A stretch of 64,000 nucleotides of DNA from Streptantibioticus parmotrematis (lineage in GTDB: Bacteria; Actinomycetota; Actinomycetes; Streptomycetales; Streptomycetaceae), in assembly GCF_019890615.1 (NCBI RefSeq), contig NZ_JAINVZ010000003.1:124001-188000 (forward strand), given 5' to 3'. Below, in pieces: positions 47,843 through 55,654 of the stretch. The notes below the pieces were generated by a model that saw nothing but the letters and a program-made list of their open reading frames with translations, was not told the origin of the DNA and did not search any database. Within the stretch, counting starts at the first letter, position 1; the number at the start of each line of letters is the position of its first letter. A program made the translations under genes and the position numbers.

Positions 47843-48103
47843 CCGGTGCCCCCTCCTGGCCGGTGCGTGCAGGCCACGCGTACGTGACGCCGGACCTGCG
47901 GCGGGACCGGCTGGCGGTAACTCTACGGGTTGCGCCTGTGGGTCGGCGCCCGGTCCGGCCGCCTCGCGCCGCCCGTGACACCGGTTCGGCCGTCCTCCCG
48001 CGCCGCGCGGGACGCCGGTCCGGCCGCCCCCGCGCCGCCGTGACCCGTGTGCCGGGTCGCCGTGGGGCTTGTCCGGCGGGCGGGCACGGTGCAAGCTGCC
48101 CGC

Positions 48104-49306
48104 ATGTCTGATCGCGCCGCCGACCGGGCCCGCTACGACCGGGCCACCGCCCATCTGGACGCGCCGCTCGCGGTCGTGGACCTGGACGCCTTCGACGCCA
48201 ACGCGGCGGATCTGGTGCGCCGGGCGCACGGCAAGCCGATCCGGGTGGCGAGCAAGTCCGTGCGCTGCCGTGCCCTGCTGGAACGGGTGCTGGCGCACGA
48301 CGGGTTCGCCGGGATCATGTCGTTCACCTTGGCCGAATCCCTGTGGCTCGCGCGGGCCGGGTTCGAGGACGTGCTGTTGGCGTACCCCTCGGTGGACCGC
48401 GCGGCCTACACGGAGTTGACAGGCGATCAGAAGCTCGCGGACGTGGTGACCGTGATGGTCGACGACGTCGCGCAGCTGGACCTGATCGACGCCGCGCGCG
48501 ACGGGGTCGGCCAACAGGTGCGTGTCTGCCTGGAGTTGGACACCTCGTTGCGGCTGCTGGGCGGGCGGGTACGCATCGGGGCGCGCCGCTCCCCGTTGCG
48601 CGAACCGGCCCAACTCGCGGCGCTGGCACGGGAGGTGACACGCCGTCCGGGGTTCCGGCTGGTGGGGCTGATGGCGTACGAGGGCCACGTCGCCGGGGTG
48701 GGGGACGACGTCGTCGGGCAGCCGCTGCGGTCCCGGGCGGTGCGCCTGATGCAGTCGGTCTCCCGCCGGGAGCTGGCCGCCCGGCGGGCCGAGGTGGTGC
48801 GGGCGGTGCGCGCGGTGGCGCCGGAGCTGGAGTTCGTCAACGGCGGCGGCACCGGCAGTGTGCAGCACACGGCGGCGGAGGACGCGGTCACCGAGATCGC
48901 GGCCGGGTCCGGGCTGTACGTGCCGAGGCTGTTCGACAACTACACCTCGTTCCGCGGGCGTCCGGCGGCGTTGTTCGCCCAGCCGGTGGTGCGGCGGCCC
49001 GGGGTGGGCGTGGTGACCGTGCTGGGCGGCGGCTACCCGGCCTCCGGTGCGGCGGGCCCCGACCGGCTGCCGGAGCCGTACCTGCCGCGGGGGCTGGCCT
49101 ACGACCCGCAGGAGGGCGCGGGCGAGGTGCAGACGCCGCTGCTGGGGTCGGCCGCCGACGACCTGCTGATCGGCGACAAGGTGTGGTTCCGGCACGCCAA
49201 GGCGGGCGAACTGTGCGAGAGGTTCGCGCAGTTGCACCTGATCGAGGGCGACCGGGTGACCGCGACGGTGCCCACGTACCGGGGCGAGGGCCTGACGTTC
49301 CTGTGA
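48104..49306 (+). CDS. PLP-dependent alanine racemase/D-threonine aldolase-fold enzyme
   Basis: A 400-residue type III PLP enzyme. The Schiff-base Lys lies in PIRVASKSVRC at about 48-50; the barrel continues with VCLELDTSLRLLGG, LVGLMAYEGHVAG and FVNGGGTGSV, the phosphate-binding Gly run. The C-terminal beta domain has GDKVWFRHAKAGELCERF. The best match in memory is amino acid deaminase/D-threonine aldolase-like proteins. CAAGCT lies six bases before the ATG, suggesting a leaderless transcript. It converges on the SDR gene. Confidence 0.82.
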   Translation: MSDRAADRARYDRATAHLDAPLAVVDLDAFDANAADLVRRAHGKPIRVASKSVRCRALLERVLAHDGFAGIMSFTLAESLWLARAGFEDVLLAYPSVDRAAYTELTGDQKLADVVTVMVDDVAQLDLIDAARDGVGQQVRVCLELDTSLRLLGGRVRIGARRSPLREPAQLAALAREVTRRPGFRLVGLMAYEGHVAGVGDDVVGQPLRSRAVRLMQSVSRRELAARRAEVVRAVRAVAPELEFVNGGGTGSVQHTAAEDAVTEIAAGSGLYVPRLFDNYTSFRGRPAALFAQPVVRRPGVGVVTVLGGGYPASGAAGPDRLPEPYLPRGLAYDPQEGAGEVQTPLLGSAADDLLIGDKVWFRHAKAGELCERFAQLHLIEGDRVTATVPTYRGEGLTFL

Positions 49307-49374
49307 TGTGACGTGACGTCAGGTCATCGGCCCCGGCTCGCGGGCGGCCGGCGCGGATCACACCGGGGTGCGGA

Positions 49375-50166
49375 TCACACCGGGGTGACGTAGGCGCCCG
49401 CGATGCCGCCGTCGACCAGGAACTCCGAGCCGGTGATGAACGACGAGTCGTCGCTGGCCAGGAAGGCGACCGCGGCGGCGATCTCCTCGGCCTCGGCGAA
49501 CCGGCCCAGCGGGATGTGCACCAGGCGGCGCGCCGCGCGCTCCGGGTCCTTGGCGAACAGCTCCCGCAGCAACGGGGTGTTGACCGGCCCCGGGCACAGC
49601 GCGTTGACCCGGATGCCCTCGCGGGCGAACTGCACGCCCAGCTCCCGCGACATCGCCAGCACGCCGCCCTTGGACGCGGTGTAGGAGATCTGCGAGGTGG
49701 CGGCGCCCATCACCGCGACGAACGAGGCGGTGTTGATGATGGAACCCTTGCCCTGCCGTTGCATGTAGGGCAGCGCGGCCTTGCAGCACAGGTAGACGGA
49801 GGTGAGGTTGACCTCCTGGACGCGGCGCCAGGCGTCGAGGCCGGTGGTGAGGATGGAGTCGTCGTCGGGCGGCGAGATGCCCGCGTTGTTGAAGGCGACG
49901 TCCACCGAGCCGTAGGTGTCGTACGCGGTCTTGAACAGCGCCTCGACCTGTTCGGCGTCGGTGACGTCGACCCGGACGAACAGGCCGCCGACCTCGTCGG
50001 CCACCGCCTTGCCCGCGGTCTCGTCGATGTCCGCGCACACCACGTGGGCGCCCTCGGAGGCGAGGCGGCGCGCGGTGGCCAGCCCGATGCCGCTGCCCGC
50101 GCCGGTGACGACGGCGGTACGGCCGGGCAGGCGGCGGCAGACGGGGGTGGGGTGCTGGTCGGTCAC
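49375..50166 (-). CDS. SDR oxidoreductase of the glnA4 cluster
   Basis: A 263-residue classical SDR: TGAGSGIGLATA at about 21-32, CADID for NAD preference, NNAGISPP, catalytic YTASK, and PGPVNTPLL. GTG start overlaps the aldehyde dehydrogenase stop as GTGA, so it is the third gene of the glnA4-ALDH-SDR unit. It probably oxidises an intermediate of amine breakdown. The exact substrate cannot be told. Confidence 0.88.
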   Translation of the reverse strand: MTDQHPTPVCRRLPGRTAVVTGAGSGIGLATARRLASEGAHVVCADIDETAGKAVADEVGGLFVRVDVTDAEQVEALFKTAYDTYGSVDVAFNNAGISPPDDDSILTTGLDAWRRVQEVNLTSVYLCCKAALPYMQRQGKGSIINTASFVAVMGAATSQISYTASKGGVLAMSRELGVQFAREGIRVNALCPGPVNTPLLRELFAKDPERAARRLVHIPLGRFAEAEEIAAAVAFLASDDSSFITGSEFLVDGGIAGAYVTPV

Positions 50167-51551
50167 GGTCGGCTCTCCTCGGTGCTGATGAAGACGTTCT
50201 TGGTCTCGGTGAAGGCGGTCAGCGCGTCGGGGCCCAGTTCGCGGCCGAGGCCCGATCCCTTGAAGCCGCCGAAGGGGGTCCAGTAGCGCACGCTGCTGTG
50301 CGAGTTGACCGACAGGTTGCCCGCGGCGACGGCGCGGGAGACCCGGATCGCGCGGCCGACGTCGCGGGTCCACAGCGATCCGGCGAGCCCGTAGGAGGTG
50401 GCGTTGGCCAGCCGTACGGCGTCCGCCTCGTCCTCGAAGGGCAGCACCACGGCCACCGGCCCGAAGATCTCCTCGGTGACCGCGGGCGCGTCCGGCGCGA
50501 GGCCGGTGAGCACGGTCGCCGGGTACCAGAAGCCCTTGCCGGACGGGACCTCGCCGCGGATGGCGGCCGGGGCGTCCTCGGGGACGTGGGAGCGCACGCG
50601 TTCGCGCTGGGCGGCGGAGATCAGCGGGCCCACCGCGGTCGCCGGGTCGGCCGGGTCCCCCACGGTCACGCCCAGCACGGCGGGCACCAGCAGCTCCATG
50701 AACCGCTCGTACACGGAGCGCTGCACCAGGATGCGGGTGCGGGCGCAGCAGTCCTGGCCGGTGTTGTCGAGGAACGCCATCGGCGCGGCCAGCGCGGCGG
50801 CCTCGATGTCGGCGTCGGCGAAGACGATGTTGGGGCTCTTGCCGCCGAGTTCCAGCGTGACCCGCTTGACCTGCGCGGCGCAGCGGGCCATGACCTGCTT
50901 GCCGACGGTCGTGGACCCGGTGAAGACGATCTTGGCGACGTCCGGGTGGTCGACCAGCGCCGCACCCGCGACCGGGCCCGCGCCGGGCAGCACCTGGAAG
51001 AGGTGCTCGGGCAGGCCGGATTCCAGGGCGAGTTCGGCCAGCCGCAGGGCGGTGAGCGGGGTGGTCTCGGCGGGCTTGAGCACGACGGCGTTGCCTGCGG
51101 CGAGCGCGGGGGCGGTGGCCCAGCCCGCGATGGGCAGGGGGAAGTTCCACGGCACGATGACGCCGACGACGCCCAGCGGTTCGTGGAAGGTGACGTTCAG
51201 GCCGCCGGGCACCGGGATCTGCGCGCCGTTGAGGCGCTCCACTCCCCCGGCCGCGTACTCCAGCAGGTCGCGGACGTTGCCCGCCTCCCAGCGCGCGTTG
51301 CCGATCGGGTGGCCCGCCTCGCGGACCTCCAACGCGGCCAGTTCCTCGCGGTGTTGGTCCACGACCGCGGCGAACCGGCGCAGCAGCCGGGCCCGGTCGG
51401 CGGGGGCGGTGGCGGCCCAGGCGGCTTGCGCGCGGACGGCGCGGGCGACGGCGGCGTCCACCTCCTGCGGCGAGGTGGCGGGGACGGTGGCGATCAACTC
51501 CTCGGTCGCCGGGTTGAGTACGAGGTGTTCCGTGGGGTGCTGGTCGGGCAC
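50163..51551 (-). CDS. Aldehyde dehydrogenase of the glnA4 cluster
   Basis: A 462-residue NAD(P)-dependent aldehyde dehydrogenase. The catalytic Glu is in TLELGGKSPN, the nucleophile Cys in NTGQDCCAR, and the cofactor segment is VPWNFPLPIAGW with FTGSTTVGK. The GTG start has AAAGGA eight bases upstream. By its place between a gamma-glutamylamine synthetase-like gene and an SDR it likely oxidises a gamma-glutamyl-aminoaldehyde. It is 95 bases after glnA4. Confidence 0.92.
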   Translation of the reverse strand: MPDQHPTEHLVLNPATEELIATVPATSPQEVDAAVARAVRAQAAWAATAPADRARLLRRFAAVVDQHREELAALEVREAGHPIGNARWEAGNVRDLLEYAAGGVERLNGAQIPVPGGLNVTFHEPLGVVGVIVPWNFPLPIAGWATAPALAAGNAVVLKPAETTPLTALRLAELALESGLPEHLFQVLPGAGPVAGAALVDHPDVAKIVFTGSTTVGKQVMARCAAQVKRVTLELGGKSPNIVFADADIEAAALAAPMAFLDNTGQDCCARTRILVQRSVYERFMELLVPAVLGVTVGDPADPATAVGPLISAAQRERVRSHVPEDAPAAIRGEVPSGKGFWYPATVLTGLAPDAPAVTEEIFGPVAVVLPFEDEADAVRLANATSYGLAGSLWTRDVGRAIRVSRAVAAGNLSVNSHSSVRYWTPFGGFKGSGLGRELGPDALTAFTETKNVFISTEESRP

Positions 51552-51646
51552 GGGGGTTTCCTTTGGCTGCGGGGCTCCGGGGACGGCGGGCGGCGGACTG
51601 CCCGGCTCCGGGGGCGGGCTCGTCGCGTCGCCTGCGGTCGGTCGCG

Positions 51647-53014
51647 TCACATGCGTTCGAAGGAGCGGAAGCGTTCCCAGTCGGTGACGGCGCTGTCGTA
51701 CGCGTCCTGCTCGACGCGGGCCATGTTGGCGTAGTGGTCGACCACCTCGTCGCCGAAGGCGGCCCGGGCGAGCGGTCCGCCGCTCCACAGCTCGGCGGCC
51801 TCGCGCAGGGTGGCGGGCACGTGGGCGGCGTCGGCGCGGTAGGCGTTGCCGGTGCAGGCCGCCTCCAGGTCCAGCCGCTCGTCGACGCCGTGCAGCCCTG
51901 CCGCGATCAGTCCGGCGACGGCGAGGTAGGGGTTGACGTCGCCGCCGGGGACGCGGTTCTCGAAGCGCAGCGAGTGGCCGTGGCCGACGACGCGCAGGGC
52001 GCAGGTGCGGTTGTCGGGCCCCCAGGCGACGGCGGTGGGCGCGAAGGAGCCGGGGCGGTAGCGCTTGTAGGAGTTGATGTTCGGCGCGTACAGCAGGGTG
52101 AACTCGCGCAGCGCGGCGAGCTGTCCGGCGAGGAAGTGCCGCATGGTCTTCGACATGCCCGCCTCGCCGCTGGGGTCGGCGAAGACCGGGTGTCCGGCCT
52201 CGTCGCGCAACGACAGGTGGATGTGGCAGGAGTTGCCCTCGCGCTCGTCGTACTTGGCCATGAAGGTGAGCGACTTGCCGGACTGGGCGGCGATCTCCTT
52301 GGCCCCGGTCTTGTAGATGACGTGCTGGTCGCAGGTGGTGAGCGCCTCGTCGTAGCGGAAGGCGATCTCGTGCTGGCCGAGGTTGCACTCGCCCTTGGCG
52401 GACTCCACCGTCATGCCCGCCGCGGCCATCTCGTTGCGGATGCGGCGCAGCAGCGGCTCGACGCGGCCGGTGCCGAGGACGGAGTAGTCGACGTTGTACT
52501 GGTTGGCGGGGTTCATGGCCCGGTAGCCGCGGCTCCAGGCGTCCTCGTAGGAGTCGTTGAAGACCATGAACTCCAGCTCGGTGCCGACGTGCGCGCTCCA
52601 GCCGCGTTCGGCGAGCCGGTCGAGCTGGCGGCGCAGGATCTGCCGCGGGGAGGCGACGACCGGGGTGCCGTCGTGCCAGGCGAGGTCGGCGGTGACCAGG
52701 GCGGTGCCGGGGTTCCACGGGGTGCGGCGCAGGGTGGAGAGGTCCGGGTGCATGGCGAAGTCGCCGTAGCCGCGTTCCCAGGAGGACATCGCGTAGCCGT
52801 CGACGGTGTTCATCTCGGCGTCGACGGCGAGCAGGTAGTTGCAGCCCTCGGTGCCGTGGTCGAGGACGTCGTCGAGGAAGAAGCGCGCGGCGAAGCGCTT
52901 GCCCTGGAGGCGGCCCTGCATGTCGGTGAAGGCCAGCACGACGGTGTCGATCTCGCCGGAGTCGACCAGGCGGCGCAGTTCATCTGCGGACAGCGGCGGC
53001 GTACGGTCTGCCAC
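51647..53014 (-). CDS. glnA4: Glutamine synthetase-like gamma-glutamylamine synthetase (GlnA4 type)
   Basis: A 455-residue protein of the GS fold. GS motifs: DMQGRLQGKR, the metal/glutamate site VGTELEFMVFN and GECNLGQHEIAF, NSCHIHLSLRD, NSYKRYRPGSFAP and RFENRVPGGDVNPYL. In S. coelicolor the paralogue at this position (SCO1613, GlnA4) is reported to glutamylate ethanolamine rather than ammonia; the gene symbol here is inferred from position and neighbours. The GTG start has AGGAGG eight bases upstream. Divergent from the FadR-type regulator with an operator inside its promoter. Confidence 0.85.
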   Translation of the reverse strand: MADRTPPLSADELRRLVDSGEIDTVVLAFTDMQGRLQGKRFAARFFLDDVLDHGTEGCNYLLAVDAEMNTVDGYAMSSWERGYGDFAMHPDLSTLRRTPWNPGTALVTADLAWHDGTPVVASPRQILRRQLDRLAERGWSAHVGTELEFMVFNDSYEDAWSRGYRAMNPANQYNVDYSVLGTGRVEPLLRRIRNEMAAAGMTVESAKGECNLGQHEIAFRYDEALTTCDQHVIYKTGAKEIAAQSGKSLTFMAKYDEREGNSCHIHLSLRDEAGHPVFADPSGEAGMSKTMRHFLAGQLAALREFTLLYAPNINSYKRYRPGSFAPTAVAWGPDNRTCALRVVGHGHSLRFENRVPGGDVNPYLAVAGLIAAGLHGVDERLDLEAACTGNAYRADAAHVPATLREAAELWSGGPLARAAFGDEVVDHYANMARVEQDAYDSAVTDWERFRSFERM

Positions 53015-53048
53015 GGGGTGAGCCTCCTGTCGGTGGACCGGGAGCTAT

Positions 53049-53068
53049 AAGGTATGCACAGAGACCTT
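53049..53068. promoter_or_regulatory. Operator AAGGT-N10-ACCTT in the glnA4 promoter
   Basis: AAGGTATGCACAGAGACCTT, arms AAGGT and ACCTT. It abuts a minus-strand -10 TATAGC (53044-53049), so a bound repressor would block glnA4. A matching site lies at 53988-54007. Confidence 0.6.
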
Positions 53069-53099
53069 TGGTTGGGAAGAGGGCGCGGGAGGAAGATCG

Positions 53100-53876
53100 A
53101 TGAGCGAGCCGCGGGACGCCGGGGGCGACCGCCTCCCGGGCGGCGACGAGGGGCTGTCCACCGTGCTGCGGCCGGTGCGCGCGGGCAGCGGTTTCGAGGA
53201 GGCGCTGGAGCAGATCCTCCAGGTGCTGCGGCTCGGCCTGGTCTCCTACGGCGAACGCCTGCCGTCCGAGCGGGAGTTGGCGGAACGGCTGCGGATCAGC
53301 CGGGTCACGCTGCGGGACGTGCTGAAGGTGCTCCAGGACCAGGGCCTGGTGGAGAGCAGGCGCGGACGGTACGGCGGCACCTTCGTGCGCTACCGGGCCG
53401 GCGCGCTGGCCGACGCGGACCCGGGCGCGGCGGGCCGCGACGAGCTGCGCCGGGCGGTCGCCCGGATCGACGTGGCCGACGTGCTGCGGTTCCGCGAGGT
53501 GCTGGAGGTGGGCGCCGCGGAGCTGTGCGCGTCACGGGAGCTGACCGCCGAGGAGGAGGACCGCCTCCAGATATGCCTGGCGGCGACCAACGACGCGCCG
53601 CTGGGCGAGTACCGCAGGCTGGACACCCGGTTGCACCTGACGCTGGCCGAGCTGTCCGGGTCGCCGTCGCTGGCCGCCGCGTACGCGGGCGTGCGGGCGA
53701 CCGTCAACGACCTGCTGGACCGCATCCCGCTGCTGGTGCGCAACCTGGAGCACTCGCAGAACCAGCACGCGGCGCTGCTCGACGCGATCCTGGAGGGCGA
53801 CACCGACGGGGCCCGCGAGATGATGCGCGAGCACTGCGCGGGCACGGCGTCACTGCTGCGCGGCTTCCTCACCTGA
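53100..53876 (+). CDS. FadR/GntR-type regulator of amine catabolism
   Basis: A 258-residue repressor-type protein. The winged helix at about 45-100 (GERLPSERELAERLRISRVTLRDVLKVLQDQGLV) is followed by an all-helical FCD domain with the acid/His metal-site pattern (LDTRLHLTLAELSG, EHSQNQHAALLDAIL, REHCAGT). GGGAGGAAG precedes the ATG. It is divergent from glnA4 and upstream of the amidotransferase; both promoters share its likely operator. Confidence 0.9.
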   Translation: MSEPRDAGGDRLPGGDEGLSTVLRPVRAGSGFEEALEQILQVLRLGLVSYGERLPSERELAERLRISRVTLRDVLKVLQDQGLVESRRGRYGGTFVRYRAGALADADPGAAGRDELRRAVARIDVADVLRFREVLEVGAAELCASRELTAEEEDRLQICLAATNDAPLGEYRRLDTRLHLTLAELSGSPSLAAAYAGVRATVNDLLDRIPLLVRNLEHSQNQHAALLDAILEGDTDGAREMMREHCAGTASLLRGFLT

Positions 53877-53898
53877 CCGGCGGCTCCCGGCCCGCGCG

Positions 53899-53950
53899 CC
53901 CGCGCCGCGCACCCGCGCCGCGCACCCGCGCCGCGCACCCGCGCCGCGCA
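53899..53950. repeat. Four perfect 13-bp tandem repeats, all but one base G or C
   Basis: CCCGCGCCGCGCA repeated exactly four times between the regulator stop and the amidotransferase operator. The flanks are also nearly pure GC. It may be a slippage product. Confidence 0.85.
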
Positions 53951-53987
53951 GACGCCCCGCCCGGCCGCCGCGCCCGCGAACGGGCCA

Positions 53988-54007
53988 AAGGTATGGTTGC
54001 GTACCAT
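53988..54007. promoter_or_regulatory. Operator AAGGT-N10-ACCAT before the amidotransferase
   Basis: AAGGTATGGTTGCGTACCAT shares AAGGTATG and the arm spacing with the glnA4 site. It also holds a nested ATGGT-N5-ACCAT palindrome of the kind FadR-type regulators bind. TACCAT at its right end could serve as a -10. Confidence 0.6.
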
Positions 54008-54094
54008 TGACCTGCGGCAGGGCCGGATGCCGTGGCAGGGAAGCCGTGGTGGGGCCGGATGTCGCGTGGCACCGCCGGATGGGGAGGCGACGCG

Positions 54095-54802
54095 TTGGAC
54101 AGCAAGCCGCTGATCGGGATCAGCACCTACTTCACCGAGGCGCACTGGGGCGCGTGGTCGATGCGCGCCGCGCTGCTGCCGGCCTTCTACCCCTCGTACG
54201 TGCGCGCCGCCGGAGGGCTCGCGGTGATGCTGCCGCCGGACGAGACGCCGGAGGCGGCCGCCCTGCTGGTGGAACGGCTGGACGGCCTGGTGCTGGCGGG
54301 CGGCGAGGACCTCGACCCCGAGCTGTACGGCGCCGCGCCGCATCCGCGCACCGGCACGCCCTGCCCGGAACGCGACGCGTGGGAACTCGCCCTGCTGCGG
54401 GCGGCGTTGGAGCGCGGACTGCCGGTGCTCGGCATCTGCCGGGGCATGCAGCTGATGAACGTCGCCGCGGGCGGCACGCTCGCCCAGCACCTGCCCGAGA
54501 CGGTCGGCCACGACGGCCACAACCCCCGCCCCGGCGTCTTCACCGACCACGCGGTCGAGACCGTCCCCGGCACCCGGATCGGTGAACTGCTGCCCCATGC
54601 GCTGGACGTGGCGAGCCATCACCACCAGGCCGTGGACCGGCTGGGCGCGGGCCTGGTGGCGTCGGCGACGGCCAAGGACGGCACCGTGGAGGCGCTGGAG
54701 TCGACCGGGCCGGGCTTCGCGCTGGGCGTGCAGTGGCATCCGGAGGTGGGCGACGACACCCGGGTGGTGCGGGCGTTGGTGGAAGCGGCGGCGCGCGGGT
54801 AG
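54095..54802 (+). CDS. Gamma-glutamyl-amine hydrolase (class I amidotransferase, PuuD-like)
   Basis: A 235-residue peptidase C26 family protein. The catalytic Cys is in GICRGMQLMN, the His and Glu in GVQWHPE; LVLAGGEDLDP and a late HHHQAVDRL segment are typical of gamma-glutamyl-GABA hydrolases. It would release glutamate from the glutamylated product of the glnA4 pathway. TTG at 54095 is chosen because GGGGAGG lies seven bases upstream; GTG 54032 and ATG 54059 are alternatives. It shares an operator motif with glnA4. Confidence 0.87.
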   Translation: MDSKPLIGISTYFTEAHWGAWSMRAALLPAFYPSYVRAAGGLAVMLPPDETPEAAALLVERLDGLVLAGGEDLDPELYGAAPHPRTGTPCPERDAWELALLRAALERGLPVLGICRGMQLMNVAAGGTLAQHLPETVGHDGHNPRPGVFTDHAVETVPGTRIGELLPHALDVASHHHQAVDRLGAGLVASATAKDGTVEALESTGPGFALGVQWHPEVGDDTRVVRALVEAAARG

Positions 54803-54862
54803 GAGTCCGTCACGGGGACGGAGGGGCCGCGGTCACGACCGCGGCGGGGAGGGGAAACGATC

Positions 54863-55654
54863 ATGCGCGGGCGGTCGTCGTCAGGCGGTGTGCGTCGGTG
54901 GGCCGGAATACCGGTGGCGGTGGTGGCGGCGCTGGCCCTGGTCCCGGGGTGCCGGGCGGTCGGCGGTGACGCGGCGGACGGCCCGGCGGGGTCCGGGCCC
55001 GCGACGTCGGCCGCCACCGGTCACGCCACCAGCCCGCTGGCCGACCCGGACGGCACCGAGCCGGGGCTCGCGCCCCTCACGTCGAGCGCCGACCGGGCGG
55101 CCGCGCGGGCGCTGATCGCGAAGGTGACGACGAAGGGCCGCGGCCCGAAGACCGGCTACTCGCGCGAGCAGTTCGGCTACGCCTGGATGGACTCCGCCAA
55201 TGGTGTCCCCTATGCCCACAACGGCTGCGACACCCGCGACGACGTGCTGAAGCGGGACGGCCAGGACGTGGCGTTCCGGGCCGGGTCGAACTGCGTGGTG
55301 ACGTCGATGACGCTGGACGACCCGTACACGGGAAAGGTCATCGACTGGACCAAACAACACGCCACCACCGTCCAGATCGACCACGTGATGCCGCTGTCCT
55401 ACGACTGGCAGATGGGCGCCGCCCATTGGACCAAGGCGAAGCGGGAGCAGATCGCCAACGACCCCCTCAACCTCCTGCCGGTCGACGGCCCCGCCAACTC
55501 CGCCAAGGGCGACTCGGGTCCCGCGTCCTGGCTGCCGCCGAGCAAGGCGATCCGCTGCGCGTACGTGGTGCGGTTCGCCCAGGTGGCGCTCAAGTACCAG
55601 TTGCCGGTGACCGCCCCGGACAAGAGCGTCATGCTCGGCCTCTGCGGCGGCTGA
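54863..55654 (+). CDS. Secreted HNH-type nuclease-like lipoprotein (DUF1524)
   Basis: A 263-residue exported protein. Signal peptide with lipobox VPGC (Cys about 30), a Gly/Ala/Thr linker, then a domain with CDTRDDVLKRD, NCVV, and the HNH-like core IDHVMPLSYDWQMGA, followed by NDPLNLLPVDGPANSAKGD and SWLPP. The His of DHV and the Asn residues fit the beta-beta-alpha metal finger. It may digest DNA outside the cell for nutrition or defence. GGGGAGGGGAAA precedes the ATG. Confidence 0.85.
   Translation: MRGRSSSGGVRRWAGIPVAVVAALALVPGCRAVGGDAADGPAGSGPATSAATGHATSPLADPDGTEPGLAPLTSSADRAAARALIAKVTTKGRGPKTGYSREQFGYAWMDSANGVPYAHNGCDTRDDVLKRDGQDVAFRAGSNCVVTSMTLDDPYTGKVIDWTKQHATTVQIDHVMPLSYDWQMGAAHWTKAKREQIANDPLNLLPVDGPANSAKGDSGPASWLPPSKAIRCAYVVRFAQVALKYQLPVTAPDKSVMLGLCGG

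Follow-up and report, generated by a model that had tools for sequence, protein, structure and literature searches.

Two conserved inverted repeats bracket the gene for a GntR/FadR-type regulator in the ethanolamine cluster of Streptantibioticus parmotrematis, one lying in the promoter region that the regulator gene shares with glnA4 and the other in front of an amidotransferase-like gene. Comparison of related genomes establishes them as a real, conserved and dedicated operator pair. Very probably they are operators for the FadR/FCD-type repressor whose gene lies between them. This protein, the orthologue of EpuRI (SCO1614), would use them to switch the ethanolamine pathway jointly. Half of this control circuit was known before; the operator, its second target and the spacing of its arms are new.

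In Streptomyces coelicolor, GlnA4 is a gamma-glutamylethanolamide synthetase, and deletion of EpuRI derepresses glnA4 in ammonium (PMC6529630). Electrophoretic mobility shift assays (EMSA) in the same species showed that EpuRI shifts the glnA4 and epuRI promoters, and further targets reported were the promoters of epuRII, epuRIV, sco5652, sco5654 and sco5657 (PMC8998196). SCO1615 is absent from the EMSA targets named in that section of the article (PMC8998196). A search of the open-licence literature found no published EpuRI operator, and the sections of PMC6529630 and PMC8998196 consulted contain neither an operator sequence nor a footprint, nor any site close to SCO1615. The operator described here is explicit and testable, for a repressor whose target promoters rested on gel shifts and expression (PMC6529630, PMC8998196).

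The ethanolamine cluster and its two inverted repeats

In the window, by which we mean the whole 64,000-nucleotide stretch of DNA that was analysed, gene order and orientation around the divergent glnA4/regulator pair are like those of the S. coelicolor ethanolamine cluster SCO1610-SCO1615. The genes and predicted operators are:

49375..50163, minus strand: short-chain dehydrogenase in the SCO1611 position (PF13561, E 7.3e-70; NF004713 above cut-off), assigned to oxidation
50163..51551, minus strand: aldehyde dehydrogenase in the SCO1612 position (PF00171, E 6.6e-158 when translated from 51560), assigned to oxidation
51647..53014, minus strand: glnA4, gamma-glutamylethanolamide synthetase in the SCO1613 position (PF00120, E 2.3e-101), assigned to glutamylation, its function taken from synteny (PMC6529630)
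53047..53070, minus strand: predicted upstream operator (operator 1), a 24-bp dyad reading ATAAGGTATGCACAGAGACCTTTG on the plus strand, in the glnA4/epuRI divergent promoter, with arms AAGGT/ACCTT and 10-nt spacing
53100..53876, plus strand: GntR/FadR-type regulator with FCD domain, 258 aa, in the EpuRI (SCO1614) position; predicted binder of both operators
53986..54009, plus strand: predicted downstream operator (operator 2), a 24-bp dyad reading CAAAGGTATGGTTGCGTACCATTG, 5′ of the amidotransferase gene
54095..54802, plus strand: peptidase C26/class-I amidotransferase-like gamma-glutamyl hydrolase in the SCO1615 position (PF07722, E 2.4e-69), assigned to deglutamylation

The regulator gene stands divergent to glnA4 within the conserved cluster, which is the basis for calling its product an EpuRI orthologue, and the same divergent arrangement is found in genome G233, taken as S. 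coelicolor-like on the strength of matches to 8 of 10 published primers. A GTG start for the aldehyde dehydrogenase can be read off the sequence at 51551. No terminator-like sites were found in 49300-54900, and the aldehyde and short-chain dehydrogenase genes probably share the glnA4 transcript. The motifs GICRGM and WHPE are readable in the product of the gene at 54095..54802, where we take them to have their role as in a peptidase C26/amidotransferase-like protein. On the 3′ side of this gene, 54863-55654 encodes an HNH/GmrSD_C-domain protein (PF07510) with, by eye, a lipoprotein-signal-like start. Just past the short-chain dehydrogenase gene and convergent with it, 48047-49306 encodes a protein that is only distantly related to the 3-hydroxy-D-aspartate aldolase model NF045642 (60.5 bits, far short of the cut-off of 690).

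The initial annotation had described two repeats with the same arms and the same 10-base spacing, in promoter positions on both sides of the FadR-type gene. Both are present, at 53049-53068 (AAGGTATGCACAGAGACCTT) and 53988-54007 (AAGGTATGGTTGCGTACCAT); site 1 lies in the glnA4/regulator divergent promoter and site 2 is 5′ of the amidotransferase gene, as had been proposed. The 10-nt spacing is identical in the two, but their arms differ, with ACCTT in one and ACCAT in the other. A scan of the 7.4-Mb genome with the suggested pattern, AAGGTATG-N7-ACCWT, returned exact matches at these two sites only. Two matches with one mismatch occur elsewhere in the genome; judged from their 3-kb surroundings, one (L004) lies inside open reading frames and the other (L003) in a gap between open reading frames of at least 100 aa.

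Reduced to its arms, AAGGT-N10-ACCWT gave 3 strand-hits in the window and none away from these two sites, the count being three from two places because the arms of site 1 are self-complementary and are counted twice. Dinucleotide shuffles (n = 100) had a mean of 0.01 hits and none reached 3. Better units than the repeats as originally delimited are the 24-mers at 53047-53070 and 53986-54009, which share 14 of 24 positions as written; with site 1 on the opposite strand the agreement is 16 of 24. Orientation is therefore nearly indifferent, as in a dyad. The predicted operator is the 24-bp dyad CAAAGGTATGG-NN-CCATACCTTTG. Over 204 site copies from related loci the symmetrised consensus is CAAAGGTATGGCGCCATACCTTTG, which is laid out as outer arms CAAWGGT, weak inner arms ATGG and two free central bases. 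In site 1, TAAGGT replaces AAAGGT on the side of the candidate glnA4 -10 element.

The DNA between the regulator stop codon and operator 2 also contains, at 53892-53950, a GC-rich tandem repeat of 13 bp, CCGCGCACCCGCG, in 4.5 copies with 97% matches. The distance from the regulator gene to the amidotransferase gene is 222 bp in the window and 100 bp in a sister genome (L010).

Conservation across glnA4-regulator loci

Conservation was measured at loci in which glnA4 stands beside the regulator gene. From best-hit lists 110 such loci (30 + 80) were collected, and 104 with distinct intergenic DNA were kept (30 + 74 after de-duplication), the window's own (L009) included. Loci dropped were two copies of the window (L001, L002), six of the 110 with identical intergenic DNA and, from the site-2 count, one at which the contig ends (L067). 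Best-hit lists are biased to close relatives, and through kinship these loci are not independent of one another; 40 further loci, mostly more distant, were added.

At site 1 every one of the 104 distinct loci matches AAGGT-N10-ACCWT without a mismatch. Site 2, scored as AAGGT-N10-WCCWT, has no mismatch in 85 of 103 loci, one in 15 and two or three in 3, so that 100 of 103 carry it with at most one mismatch; the W of WCCWT, in place of ACC, was adopted post hoc after the alignment had been seen. In the stricter ACCWT form site 2 is perfect in 32 of 104 loci, one off in 59, two off in 9, and further off or truncated in 4. All perfect matches to the ACCWT form in the 892 kb of locus DNA fall inside the two site intervals, and one shuffled copy of that DNA contained none. 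The “ATG” that the earlier pattern had included fared less evenly. At site 1 its A and T are kept and its G is not (A 1.00, T 0.91, G 0.18), and at site 2 conservation is partial (A 0.79, T 0.85, G 0.85). The invariant core is the pair of outer arms with the 10-nt spacing.

Identity to the window at site 1 is 85-100% in the arms and 33% in the spacer, and the near flanks are partly conserved, with 70-99% for three of six blocks; conservation of site 1 alone could therefore reflect the promoter. At site 2 the arms are 83-96% identical, the spacer 50% and the flanks 26-39%. As the loci are related and not independent, it is the decay of the bases neighbouring site 2 that shows selection on its arms.

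The spacing itself is fixed. The 104 loci contain 189 matches with N10 spacing. The 15 matches with N5 spacing, which derive from the inner arm of site 2, are all situated 55-151 bp past the regulator gene. Matches with N13 spacing number 39, and every one is 1.9-5.7 kb downstream of the regulator start; only N10 is populated in the operator role. AAGGT-N2-WCCWT, AAGGT-N3-WCCWT and AAGGT-N4-WCCWT have 0, 1 and 0 matches, respectively, in the same loci. Looping between the two sites in a fixed phase found no support, as the distances between them (780-1200 bp in 92 loci) show no periodicity of 10-11 bp.

Dependence of the sites on the regulator gene

The distribution of the sites was compared with that of the regulator in 132 genomes of the family, of which 131 belong to a single genus and the other is that of the window. 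The search pattern, WAAGGT-N10-WCCWTTG, had been refined beforehand on loci that partly overlap the searched genomes. It was found in 128 of the 132 genomes (253 strand-hits), and the reversed pattern gave 8 matches in 8 of 132. All four genomes without the pattern are also without the regulator, and across 64 genomes searched for both, regulator and pattern coincide in every one (62 with both, 2 with neither). Among 15 genomes of other families in the order the pattern was found in none and the reversed control in 7; a loose spacing control, N9 with different flanking letters, was found in none of 147 genomes. A genome has about two occurrences of the pattern, most of them at a single locus, and the off-locus matches, at least five (G047, G135, G223, G224 and G243), come at about the control rate.

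Loss of the regulator gene gives the converse picture. Twenty regulator-less family genomes, those listed of 48, contain no match to the pattern, and 10 of these 20 nevertheless keep glnA4. In nine of the ten, the best match in the 300 bp 5′ of glnA4 has 2-4 mismatches. In the tenth (genome G022, locus L169), the regulator gene is reduced to its last 18 codons, with no operator 1 left and a single mismatch in an arm of operator 2. This locus (L169:2865-3066), with glnA4 and the amidotransferase gene retained, represents either a natural loss of the regulator or a collapse in an assembly of about 410 contigs.

One genome separates the regulator gene from its presumed targets. In G266 (L218:2117-2325 and L217) the regulator (73% identical) is encoded on another contig, and both sites still lie between glnA4 and the following genes, 153 bp apart. 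Matches so close together looked like a counter-example; with the regulator present elsewhere in the genome they became support. In the 3.7 kb around the relocated regulator gene there is no site at up to one mismatch, and self-control of the regulator seems to have been lost. That the sites stay with the target genes and not with the regulator gene is as expected of a trans-acting repressor.

These distributions bear on an alternative in which the sites belong to another regulator, such as GlnR or a paralogous GntR protein, acting alongside EpuRI. The cluster is nitrogen-regulated, with ammonium repressing glnA4 (PMC6529630), several EpuR regulators reportedly bind each other's promoters (PMC8998196), and the G266 sites persist where the adjacent regulator gene is missing, though that genome still encodes the regulator. 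Against this, the pattern disappears from the 20 listed genomes without the local regulator and follows the regulator in 64 of 64, and so small a set, some two sites per genome that mostly share a locus, is unlike that of a global regulator. GlnR in particular is reported not to bind the glnA4 promoter (PMC8998196). We consider a second regulator at these sites improbable, and the EpuRI orthologue remains by far the better candidate.

Permease-bearing loci and more distant relatives

Two consequences of the arrangement had been missed in the earlier reading. Site 1, from its position, must also serve the regulator's own promoter, and site 2 precedes an ethanolamine permease gene in those relatives that have one. 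An interval of 1.6-2.4 kb separates the regulator and amidotransferase genes in 35 of 103 loci, and in 34 of these 35 site 2 (at most one mismatch) stands in front of it. The gene in the interval scored above the cut-off of the TIGR00908 ethanolamine permease model at all three loci tested. In the window no permease gene intervenes and site 2 is directly 5′ of the amidotransferase gene; S. coelicolor likewise is described without a permease gene between the two (PMC6529630). Since site 2 precedes either the permease interval or the amidotransferase gene, the unit under control takes in the repressor and the steps of glutamylation, oxidation and deglutamylation, together with uptake where a permease gene is present.

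At 11 diverged glnA4-linked loci, whose regulators are 51-75% identical, site 1 is present at up to one mismatch in 10, and a downstream site (ACCWT, at most one mismatch) in 3, that of L138 preceding an interval of about 1.7 kb. The site downstream of the regulator is thus not universal; in diverged loci that are without it, the regulator's own transcript may carry the amidotransferase gene.

Still more distant regulators, 48-55% identical, are encoded at 29 loci, and in 27 of them the 400 bp 5′ of the regulator gene contain CAAWGG-N12-CCWTTG with no more than one mismatch. Counted over 28 of the loci (L125 was added for the count of 29), CAAWGG and CCWTTG are found 29 times at N12 spacing and not once at six other spacings, and in 23 of 28 a glnA4-like gene begins 1.7-1.9 kb upstream of the regulator. 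This distant EpuRI-like group (L197-L216, L125, L127-L136) has a 24-bp dyad of its own, for example CAATGGTCTGGAACCAGACCATTG, with outer arms as in the EpuRI dyad.

The proposal that one regulator acts on both promoters and moves the steps together is accordingly the best-supported reading of the pair: the sites track the presence of the regulator, persist in G266 and recur with distant homologues.

A candidate glnA4 promoter at site 1

On the glnA4 strand, site 1 and its surroundings read CTTCCCAA-gCAAtGGT-N10-ACCTTA, and two elements in this stretch are candidate promoter hexamers:

53073..53078, minus strand: candidate -35 element TTCCCA of glnA4, inside the almost invariant CTTCCCAA; columns at least 95% conserved over 104 loci
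53049..53054, minus strand: candidate -10 element TACCTT of glnA4, 18 bp from TTCCCA and inside one operator arm; columns at least 95% conserved over 104 loci

A scan with the sigma-70 consensus predicted a promoter at neither site 1 nor site 2, so the reading of TTCCCA and TACCTT as putative -35 and -10 elements comes from their conservation.

The arms could be suspected of being -35/-10 elements or other RNA polymerase contacts, conserved as promoter rather than as operator. Site 1 does overlap the nearly invariant TTCCCA-N18-TACCTT directed at glnA4, and its near flanks are conserved. However, site 2 repeats these arms and this spacing amid unconserved flanks, and the arms are dyad-symmetric and vanish with the regulator gene while glnA4 persists, which makes promoter elements a very unlikely explanation of the pair as a whole. 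The possibility that the two short inverted repeats resemble each other by chance is refuted by the comparative data: although AAGGTATG-N7-ACCWT at up to two mismatches is barely commoner in the 7.4-Mb genome than its control (21+26 against 25+15), 0.01 strand-hits were expected in the window against 3 found, and the repeat is conserved in 104 of 104 loci.

Proposed control circuit and the published EpuRI targets

We propose that, when substrate is missing, the repressor would sit on operator 1, which overlaps both the putative glnA4 -35/-10 region and the start of the repressor gene. Occupancy there would block the unit of glnA4, aldehyde dehydrogenase and dehydrogenase genes and would also limit synthesis of the repressor. 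Occupancy of operator 2 would block the amidotransferase gene or, in relatives, the permease gene and then the amidotransferase gene. Once ethanolamine entered the cell, a metabolite of the pathway would bind the metal-holding FCD pocket and the repressor would be released, whereupon uptake, glutamylation, oxidation and deglutamylation would rise together. That the regulator binds site 2, and that the amidotransferase gene is induced through this site, are predictions from sequence. We infer that EpuRI contacts these exact bases, that it occludes RNA polymerase and that it answers to such a ligand. The likely inducer is a metabolite bound in the FCD domain; because the ligands of such domains are usually carboxylates, our guess is a gamma-glutamyl compound. 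The model predicts a single small local regulon that switches ethanolamine uptake, glutamylation, oxidation and deglutamylation in Streptomyces.

The operator can be compared with the gel-shift targets listed above. The pattern has exactly two occurrences in the S. coelicolor-like genome G233, and both are at the glnA4-regulator locus. A stretch of about 57 kb of G233, to which we assign the sco5652-5657 numbering and which is thus expected to hold these genes, had a best weight-matrix score of 4.1 and no comparable site; on the same scale the lowest of the 204 collected sites scored 8.7 and their 5th percentile was 20.8. With no operator near sco5652-5657, the shifts observed with those promoters either depended on some other sequence or were weak or not specific. 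This calls into question part of the published list of EpuRI gel-shift targets, where the operator is absent in the genome examined.

The regulator protein and the spacing of its operator

The regulator combines a GntR winged helix (PF00392, 50.4 bits; cut-off 27) with an FCD domain (PF07729, 73.7 bits; cut-off 24.3). D175, H179, H223 and H245 are invariant in 28 of 28 aligned regulators, down to 50% identity. Such an Asp/His tetrad is the metal-binding set of the FCD pocket, and the regulator appears to retain pocket residues of the metal-binding type, forming a predicted metal site. An RPVR-G stretch just N-terminal of the winged helix is strictly conserved.

The AlphaFold model is confident (mean pLDDT 85.5), and its best fold matches in the PDB are GntR regulators, including NanR, PmiR, VanR-type Atu1419 and CGL2915 (E 9e-9 to 6e-8). 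Over the whole chain the TM-scores are no higher than 0.43-0.48, which leaves the relative placing of the two domains unmatched. LldR (2DI3), NanR (6ON4) and VanR-type Atu1419 (6Z74), which are among the best fold matches, have a winged helix and an FCD domain as here; LldR and NanR are also among the best PDB matches by sequence.

The operator departs from what is usual for this subfamily. FadR-subfamily sites consist of TKGT and ACMA boxes with 3 nt (2 in some groups) between GT and AC (PMC4494728), whereas GT-N10-AC is found in all 104 copies of site 1. Long palindromes with conserved GT and AC far from the centre, a geometry like the present one, are described for the YtrA subfamily (PMC4494728). 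Membership of the YtrA subfamily was nevertheless rejected, as the regulator has a full FCD domain and not the short YtrA C-terminus, and so was a YtrA-type ABC-transporter operon context, the neighbours being glutamylation-pathway enzymes. The spacing breaks the site-prediction rule of the FadR subfamily, and similar operators may have been overlooked elsewhere.

Seven extra base pairs do not make a whole helical turn, which points to two dimers or to an unusual pose of the DNA-binding domains. NanR binds GGTATA direct repeats as three dimers (PMC8012715), and Atu1419 is tetrameric and binds a 10-bp palindrome (PMC7797058); their DNA sites are unlike the 24-bp dyad described here, and their assemblies indicate that the fold allows higher ones. 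The chances are evenly balanced that this FadR/FCD-type family recognises a 24-bp dyad, with GT and AC 10 nt apart (seven more than the norm), in a way that goes beyond one compact FadR-like dimer. It might do so as two dimers, one per half-site and perhaps joined through RPVR-G, or with splayed DNA-binding domains in a geometry new for FCD proteins. The 10-nt GT-AC arrangement as the recognition mode of EpuRI is, in either case, a prediction.

A further parallel is HypR of S. coelicolor, the FadR-subfamily repressor of hydroxyproline use; it too is a streptomycete regulator of this type that represses its own gene, and its binding site covers a -10 region (PMC6608401). The HypR motif, CTNTGC(A/C)ATGTCAC, is of unclear symmetry and has several unlinked targets (PMC6608401), in contrast to the dyad described here, of which a genome has roughly two copies, mostly at a single locus.
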